Positions 26,214-28,505 of a DNA stretch of 64,000 nucleotides are shown piece by piece. Made by a program: the position numbers and the translations under genes. Position 1 is the first letter of the stretch. Every line of letters starts with the position of its first letter. The DNA lies in contig JALWVU010000004.1 of NCBI GenBank assembly GCA_027079305.1, positions 1 through 64,000 on the forward strand, read 5' to 3'. The DNA is from Aquificaceae bacterium (GTDB lineage Bacteria > Aquificota > Aquificia > Aquificales > Aquificaceae). A model generated the notes under the pieces. The model saw nothing but the letters and a program-made list of their open reading frames with translations, was not told where the DNA came from and did no database searches.

Positions 26214-27263
26214 ATGGCTGTAAAGGACATAATGGACGCTCTCAAAGGAGAAAGTCTCGAGGATCTTGGACTTAAGGAAAATCTCGCCCAGCTGGTTAAG
26301 GACATAAAGCTCATAGGTGATGAACTCGATGTTCTCCTGTATCTTCCAAAGCCCGGTCTCGAGGATGTCCTGAGGGCCAAGGTGGAGCAGGCCCTCTCTG
26401 AGGTTCCGGATGTAAAGAGACTAAACGTCAGGTTCGCTCAGGCCCCTCCCGAGCAGAAGCCCCAGATACCTGTGGGACAGCCCGCCTTCACGAAGAGGAA
26501 GGTTCCCGGTATAAAGCACCTGGTCGCGGTGGGGAGCGGTAAGGGAGGCGTTGGTAAGTCCACGGTGGCGACTAACCTCGCTTTAGCTCTGGCCAAGATA
26601 GGCTACAAGGTGGGGCTTCTGGACGCTGATATATACGGCCCCAGCGTTCCAACCCTATTGGGACTTAAAGGGGAAAGGGCTACCGTGAACGAGAGGAACA
26701 AGATAGTGCCCGTGGAGAAGTTCGGTATAAAGGTCCTCTCCATAGGCTTCATGCTCCCTTCCGAGGACACCCCCGTGATATGGAGGGGACCGATGCTTAT
26801 GAAAGCCCTCACCCAGTTCCTCTTCGACGTGGAGTGGGGAGAGCTGGACTTCCTTATAATGGACCTTCCTCCCGGGACGGGGGACGTTCAGCTCACCCTC
26901 GCCCAGAACGTGGAGATGTCAGGAGCGGTTGTAGTCACCACTCCCCAGGACGTTGCCCTGGCGGACGTGAAGAAGGCTACATCCATGTTCAGGGAGGTTC
27001 AGATACCGGTTCTGGGAGTTATAGAGAACATGGCCTACTTCATCTGCCCAGGCGACGGCCAGAAGTATTACATATTCGGCAAGGGAAAGGTGGCGGAGTT
27101 CGCCTCCGCTTACGGTCTCAAGATACTCGGCTCCATACCCATAGATCCCGAGGTCTCCGAAAGGTCGGACAGGGGAGAGCCCATAGTTGTGGGAAGTCCC
27201 GACTCGGAGGTGGCGAGGGCTTTTGTGGGGATAGCTAAGGTTCTGGCTCAAGAATTAGGATGA
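26214..27263 (+). CDS. Mrp/ApbC-family Fe-S carrier P-loop ATPase
   Basis: 349 residues. A short N-terminal domain (1-90) precedes a P-loop with the deviant Walker A GSGKGGVGKST (107-117), DADIYGPSVP, DLPPGTGD and TTPQDVALADV. The usual C-terminal CxxC that holds a bridging cluster is changed: FICPGDG gives Cys278 but Asp281 in place of the second cysteine. Mrp proteins carry and insert Fe-S clusters. The cysteine-desulfurase-like gene follows by 12 bases. AAGGAGG precedes the ATG. Confidence 0.92.
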   Translation: MAVKDIMDALKGESLEDLGLKENLAQLVKDIKLIGDELDVLLYLPKPGLEDVLRAKVEQALSEVPDVKRLNVRFAQAPPEQKPQIPVGQPAFTKRKVPGIKHLVAVGSGKGGVGKSTVATNLALALAKIGYKVGLLDADIYGPSVPTLLGLKGERATVNERNKIVPVEKFGIKVLSIGFMLPSEDTPVIWRGPMLMKALTQFLFDVEWGELDFLIMDLPPGTGDVQLTLAQNVEMSGAVVVTTPQDVALADVKKATSMFREVQIPVLGVIENMAYFICPGDGQKYYIFGKGKVAEFASAYGLKILGSIPIDPEVSERSDRGEPIVVGSPDSEVARAFVGIAKVLAQELG

Positions 27264-27275
27264 GGAGGTAAGAGG

Positions 27276-28505
27276 ATGTTTGCGAAGAAGGCAGGTGCGA
27301 GGGTCGTTTACCTGGATCACATAGCTACCACTCCCGTTGCGGAAGAGGTATTGGAGGCCATGCTCCCCTACTTCAGGGAGCGCTTCGGAAATCCCACCTC
27401 TCTCCACAGCTTCGGTCAGGAAGCCAAGAAGGCGATAAACGAGGCGAGGGAGAAGATCGCCACCCTGATAAACGCCAACACACCCGAGGAGATAATCTTC
27501 ACCTCAGGAGGTATAGAGGCTAACAACCTGGCCATAAAGGGGATAGCGAGCGCCTACAAGAGGAGGGGAAACCACATAGTCACTACCGAGATAGAGCACC
27601 ACTCTATACTCCACCCCTGCAAGAGCTTAGAAAGAGAGGGCTGGGAGGTCACCTATCTAAAGCCCGATAAATACGGCCTTATAGACCCCGAGCAGGTCAG
27701 GGAGGCTGTGAGAAAGGACACTGTTCTCGTCTCCATAGGACACTCCAACAGGGAAATAGGGACCATACAGAACATAAAGGAGCTCGTTCAGGCTGCTAAA
27801 GAGAAGAACCCCAAGGTAATCTTCCACACGGACGCGGCCCCCACCCTGGGACATTACCCGGTGGACCTCAAAGAATGGGGCGTGGACGCTGCTTCCTTCA
27901 CAGCGCATCTCATGTATGGACCTAAAGGTGTAGGTGCCCTCTGGACCAGGAAGGGAGTCAAAGTCAGACCCCTCATAGAGGGAGGGACCCAGGAAAGGGG
28001 TGTGAGAGCGGGAACCGAGAACGTCCCCGGAATAGTTGGCTTCGGCGCCGCTGCGGAGCTCACCATGAAGGAGCTCGAGGACAGGATGAAAAGGCTCGCC
28101 GGCTACAGGGACAGGCTCAAGAAGGCCATAGAGGAGAAGCTCGAATACATAGAGTTTACGGGACATCCCACCCAGAGGCTTCCCCACCACCTTTCCCTCA
28201 TAGTTCACTTCATAGAGGGAGAGGCCATGCTCCTGAGATGCGACTTGATGGGAATAGAGACCGCCTCCGGATCCGCTTGTGTTTCCCTCGCTCTCAAGCA
28301 GTCCCACGTTCTCTTCGCCATAGGTGTTCCCAAGGAGGTCTCCAACGGCTCGATCGTCTTCAGCTTCGGAAGGGAAAACACGGAGGAGGACGTGGATTAC
28401 GTCTCGGAGGAGTTTCCCAAGATAGTTAACTGGCTCAGAAGCCTCTCCCCCTTCAATCCCGAGAACTGGGAAAAGTATGTGAAGTCGAGGGAAGGAGCAC
28501 ACTAA
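27276..28505 (+). CDS. NifS/IscS-like protein lacking the PLP lysine
   Basis: 409 residues and clearly cysteine-desulfurase fold: FTSGGIEANNLAIKG, EHHS, GTQERGVRAGTENVPGIVGFG, and the sulfur-accepting cysteine Cys335 in ASGSACVS. The PLP-lysine motif SAHK-x-YGPKG reads TAHLMYGPKG, so the Schiff-base lysine is Leu212. Other cofactor contacts are altered as well: YLDHIATTP for YLDNAATTP, HSNREIG for H-x-NNEIG, DAAPT for DA-x-Q. Asp186 remains. It probably does not act as a normal PLP enzyme, and may be a scaffold or sulfur-transfer partner of Mrp (inference). Its stop converges on folK. Confidence 0.85.
   Translation: MFAKKAGARVVYLDHIATTPVAEEVLEAMLPYFRERFGNPTSLHSFGQEAKKAINEAREKIATLINANTPEEIIFTSGGIEANNLAIKGIASAYKRRGNHIVTTEIEHHSILHPCKSLEREGWEVTYLKPDKYGLIDPEQVREAVRKDTVLVSIGHSNREIGTIQNIKELVQAAKEKNPKVIFHTDAAPTLGHYPVDLKEWGVDAASFTAHLMYGPKGVGALWTRKGVKVRPLIEGGTQERGVRAGTENVPGIVGFGAAAELTMKELEDRMKRLAGYRDRLKKAIEEKLEYIEFTGHPTQRLPHHLSLIVHFIEGEAMLLRCDLMGIETASGSACVSLALKQSHVLFAIGVPKEVSNGSIVFSFGRENTEEDVDYVSEEFPKIVNWLRSLSPFNPENWEKYVKSREGAH

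Follow-up and report, generated by a model that had tools for sequence, protein, structure and literature searches.

A cysteine desulfurase homologue of Aquificaceae that probably works without PLP, as a scaffold for cluster assembly on IscU

In the textbook scheme of Fe-S assembly, the first step belongs to a PLP enzyme that takes sulfur from cysteine. Group I IscS/NifS proteins use PLP, and structures of IscS and NifS have given roles to the lysine that forms the Schiff base, to a ligand of the PLP phosphate, to a pair of residues close to the ring, and to an arginine that binds the substrate carboxylate. PLP-less IscS proteins are already known in archaea. The IscS of A. fulgidus has no Schiff-base lysine and no desulfurase activity, and it is bound to IscU, to whose cluster it contributes a cysteine ligand (PMC7585200; PDB 4EB5/4EB7, IscS-IscU complex). 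The essential lysine is likewise missing from IscS1 of Methanosarcina acetivorans, which forms a pair with an IscU (PMC7585200). The SMS system of M. jannaschii goes further, using sulfide with no desulfurase at all (PMC12192291).

We analyzed a window of 64,000 nucleotides from an Aquificaceae bacterium (contig JALWVU010000004.1). Its forward strand carries, at positions 27276–28505, an intact ORF that starts with ATG and encodes an IscS/NifS homologue of 409 residues with the lysine-site motif SFTAHLMYGPKG. The NifS/IscS profile models match this pseudo cysteine desulfurase below their equivalog cut-offs: it scores 487.9 bits with TIGR03402 (NifS; equivalog cut-off 530.75) and 396 bits with TIGR02006 (IscS; equivalog cut-off 643.2), and passes only the cut-off of the looser NF002806 subfamily (334.9 versus 304). 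Aligned with E. coli IscS (a reference sequence whose residues 150–237 match a PDB chain), the protein shows K206L, T76I, N155R, Q183P, and R354V, together with a conservative S203T. The Schiff-base lysine of the SxHKxxGPKG motif is replaced by Leu212 (CTC, 27909–27911), the PLP-phosphate-binding Thr76 by Ile80 (ATA, 27513–27515), Asn155 by Arg159 (AGG, 27750–27752), Gln183 by Pro189 (CCC, 27840–27842), and the substrate-carboxylate Arg354 by Val361 (GTC, 28356–28358), all on the forward strand. Retained, in E. coli numbering, are D8, E77, H104, N154, D180, H205, and C328, the last being the catalytic cysteine of the mobile loop (SGSAC). This cysteine, Cys335 of the protein (TGT, 28278–28280, forward strand), is a candidate persulfide site or cluster ligand; its context ASGSACVS is invariant among the orthologues. 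The original prediction, made from the letters of the window, had read the lysine codon as leucine, the loop cysteine as present, and the protein as intact at 409 residues, and the alignment agrees throughout. It had also named three other changed cofactor contacts; the changes are real but the count was low, as four are altered besides the lysine, in addition to S203T.

These substitutions are a property of the lineage. A survey of the lysine-to-leucine change among relatives, proposed along with the original prediction, found lysine absent from all orthologues: position 206 is Leu in 30 of 30 Aquificaceae-type sequences (that of the window included) and Tyr in 17 of 17 Hydrogenothermaceae-type sequences. 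In all 47 orthologues of the two families, position 183 is Pro or Ala and Ile76, Arg155, and Val354 are constant, so that five sites are altered in each. A set of 73 Aquificota loci, drawn from a collection scan and from genome loci and partly overlapping the 47, has 48 Leu and 25 Tyr; the Leu group comprises Aquifex, Hydrogenobacter, Thermocrinis, and Hydrogenobaculum, and the Tyr group Persephonella, Sulfurihydrogenibium, and Hydrogenothermus. Pairwise dN/dS among orthologues, for the pairs where it was computable, is 0.015–0.05, indicating strong purifying selection. The constancy of position 206 as Leu or Tyr argues against a sequencing slip, and the 47 altered orthologues, the 73-locus set, and the dN/dS values rule out sequencing error or a pseudogene.

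The nearest PDB chains to the protein are those of 9WFY and its variants 9WFE, 9WFB, 9WF8, 9WEW, 9WER, and 9WEP. Chain A of 9WFY (wild type, 89% identical to the window protein) corresponds exactly to the ORF of a relative genome (G019) and likewise carries Leu, Ile, Arg, Pro, and Val at the five altered sites. The IscU chain of the entry matches the IscU of the window's genome at E=6.6e-98, and this chain (D) departs from 2Z7E, the structure of A. aeolicus IscU (PMC13423590), at a single site across the aligned region, the D/A residue in the CGD motif. The orthologue is apparently from Aquifex aeolicus. With the orthologue as chain A and IscU as chain D, 9WFY is thus a deposited IscS-IscU complex for a protein 89% identical to that of the window. 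An AlphaFold model of the window protein, built on 10 aligned sequences, was of low quality (mean pLDDT 60.5) and was set aside; crystal structures of the orthologue exist. The orthologue was solved with IscU in 9WFY. The deposits are titled "cysteine desulfurase" and are silent on distribution, on Mrp, and on the absence of other systems, and a literature search found no paper on 9WFY or on the Aquificales PLP-less IscS.

Across the six variant entries, residues are exchanged stepwise: first R for N and L for K; next V for R, P for Q, I for T, and, beside the N-terminal Asp-His, I for A; and last T for S, along with two adjacent residues. The series from 9WFE to 9WEP looks like an effort to restore the enzyme. 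This bears on whether the protein could still be a PLP enzyme, with its cofactor held non-covalently or through another lysine and with desulfurase or some other activity. Three residues that surround the PLP ring (His104, Asp180, and His205) are retained, as such an enzyme would require; however, neither the Schiff-base lysine nor the phosphate Thr remains, Asn155, Gln183, and the substrate Arg are lost as well, and restoring canonical residues step by step would be pointless if the wild type were active. We regard a surviving PLP enzyme as very improbable, and from its residues the protein would hold no PLP in the cell. The original suggestion of a functional non-PLP derivative fits the strong purifying selection, the lineage-wide alteration of these residues, and the finding that the orthologue was crystallized together with IscU.

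We examined 92 genomes of the phylum that are at least 90% complete, 69 of them from Aquificaceae and Hydrogenothermaceae and 23 from other lineages. PLP-less IscS is found in 67 of the 69 and in none of the 23, where matches were weak (~23 bits or less). IscU has the same distribution (67/69, and 0/23 in lineages without PLP-less IscS); its CGD motif is intact, as is LPPxK[IM]HC in most copies. The distribution of SufB is reversed, with 0/69 genomes in the two families and 23/23 in the lineages that lack PLP-less IscS and IscU. The pattern of these genes as a whole rests on few independent lineages, making it strong as description and weaker as statistics. With SufB absent, SUF is ruled out as the true Fe-S machinery of the two families, and no Fe-S scaffold system other than IscU with PLP-less IscS was found in them. 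Carriers of the IscA type are present, and HscB is missing from 59 of 61 genomes, with two marginal matches.

Neither profile nor protein searches of the window's genome revealed a second, active cysteine desulfurase; after the PLP-less IscS, the strongest match to PF00266, at 103 bits, is an aminotransferase-like protein. Seven single-contig relatives (G017, G025, G026, G031, G032, G048, and G067) also have no other cysteine desulfurase. A lysine-bearing desulfurase occurs in only six of the 43 Aquificaceae genomes that are at least 90% complete. At two loci (L065:2105-3304, reverse strand, and L069:2075-3190, forward strand) this gene adjoins an fdhE-like gene, named by eye; the setting hints at a role in maturing formate dehydrogenase, not in Fe-S assembly. 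Among Hydrogenothermaceae, a second copy is found in 21/26 genomes; those examined keep the lysine and adjoin tsaB-like genes (also named by eye).

It appears that a bacterial order runs IscU without a PLP desulfurase. We think it likely that the window protein is a PLP-less IscS that extracts no sulfur from cysteine, scaffolds cluster assembly on IscU, and is fed by sulfide or persulfide. Having given up PLP, and cysteine as a sulfur source, the cysteine-desulfurase fold would serve as the platform on which IscU assembles its [2Fe-2S] cluster. A. fulgidus IscS is the nearest functional parallel. Both proteins have lost the lysine and the substrate Arg (Leu in A. fulgidus, GTLLLTLGR), the window protein retains the loop cysteine, and its partnership with IscU is seen in co-occurrence, in gene adjacency, and in the co-crystal of the orthologue; the A. 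fulgidus protein differs in being archaeal and in having Asp at the lysine position, where Aquificota have Leu or Tyr. By analogy, Cys335 would probably be a temporary cluster ligand or a docking point for persulfide. M. acetivorans IscS1 shares the loss of lysine and the pairing with IscU but differs in that its genome also encodes an active IscS2. Group I proteins (E. coli IscS, or Desulfofundulus IscS with iscU downstream) belong to the same family but keep Lys, Thr, Asn, Gln, and Arg; the lysine-bearing bacterial relatives at 48%–52% identity pair with iscU as well.

The protein has lost its key residues and is nevertheless kept nearly unchanged as a partner of IscU, so the sulfur probably does not come from cysteine. 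Sulfide would be a plausible source, given the lack of a desulfurase and, as a precedent, the use of sulfide by the SMS system of M. jannaschii; in these organisms of sulfur-rich habitats, sulfur is expected from sulfide or from a persulfide carrier of the rhodanese or TusA type. The main rival to the scaffold reading is a PLP-independent relay, in which the loop cysteine would take persulfide sulfur from a donor of the rhodanese, TusA, or DsrE type and pass it to IscU. The invariance of this cysteine and of its ASGSACVS context, along with the lack of another desulfurase in most relatives, would suit a relay, but no sulfurtransferase gene adjoins in the window (read by eye) and the A. fulgidus precedent suggests a ligand rather than a donor of sulfur. 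On balance we consider a relay unlikely and favor a scaffold for IscU.

Directly upstream, at 26214–27263 on the forward strand and separated by a gap of 12 bases, lies a gene for an Mrp/ApbC-type P-loop ATPase. An mrp gene occupies this position in 46/47 loci (the exception is L033). The iscU gene lies 0.1–0.5 kb downstream of the PLP-less IscS gene in many Hydrogenothermaceae-type genomes; in Aquificaceae-type loci it is not adjacent. The original prediction had left the role open among sulfur carrier, scaffold, and regulator. The demonstrated partner, which it did not name, is the IscU of the orthologue's co-crystal, and mrp is the near-invariant upstream neighbor; of the three roles the scaffold is favored and the regulator disfavored. 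A protein acting mainly as a regulator or stabilizer of IscU or Mrp, outside the cluster chemistry, would agree with mrp being the most constant neighbor, but would have no need to keep an invariant loop cysteine, and the co-crystal partner is IscU. This seems to us the least probable of the accounts considered. In the scaffold reading, Mrp would probably take part in the same step of assembly or transfer.

The Mrp protein is itself altered. The CXXC cluster-binding motif of ApbC/Mrp reads CPGD in the window, leaving one motif cysteine. Beside PLP-less IscS genes, CP followed by two non-cysteine residues is found in 115/118 Mrp ORFs (some genomes being counted twice), and the whole protein usually has only one cysteine (loci L009-L054 and L105-L175). 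CPxC is intact in all 11 Mrp from SufB-using Aquificota lineages that lack PLP-less IscS. This suggests that Mrp and PLP-less IscS changed together, and the loss of the Mrp cysteine may have been a single event.

Outside Aquificota, the closest lysine-bearing relatives are Bacillota proteins (48%–52% identity) with iscU downstream. PLP-less IscS genes were also seen beyond the phylum (L191:5001-6152, L193:5001-6176, and L186:877-2040): two Nitrospirota-type proteins without the lysine have Arg at 206 and iscU downstream, and one from an actinomycete MAG has Gln. In a tree of bacterial sequences without the long-branched, divergent second NifS-like genes, the PLP-less sequences all fall into a single clade (support 100/96) that contains Aquificota (100/99). 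A wider and more tentative reading, which we hold as a possibility with somewhat more doubt than confidence, is that the Aquifex and Persephonella groups make Fe-S clusters with IscU, PLP-less IscS, and a one-cysteine Mrp, drawing sulfur from sulfide or sulfane carriers and not from cysteine. PLP-less IscS would then have a single origin in a bacterial clade reaching Nitrospirota and Actinomycetota, and Mrp would have changed with it, its cysteine acting with IscS/IscU.

While a structure from A. aeolicus has been deposited, the bacterial PLP-less clade, its place in the only scaffold system found in two families, and the loss of the Mrp cysteine appear to be new. They extend to bacteria a feature seen in few archaea, and the structural role of the IscS fold would seem to be separable from catalysis. 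These organisms offer a natural setting in which to study functions of IscS other than sulfur supply, and a warning that genomes annotated with a "cysteine desulfurase" may have none.

Two further observations concern other lineages and genes. In families f2, f4, and f5 (G087-G103 and G037-G049), no cysteine desulfurase and no IscU were detected, and nearly all genomes have a single SufB-like gene; in this they resemble the archaeal SMS system, so that they too seem to be without a desulfurase. A second, divergent, and degenerate NifS-like protein, with Ser or Phe at the lysine and Pro at His205, is encoded on the reverse strand at L070:1824-2912 and L071:1730-2860. Its gene lies between aldehyde:ferredoxin-oxidoreductase-like and homocitrate-synthase-like genes (named by eye), and similar matches occur in G062 and G063.
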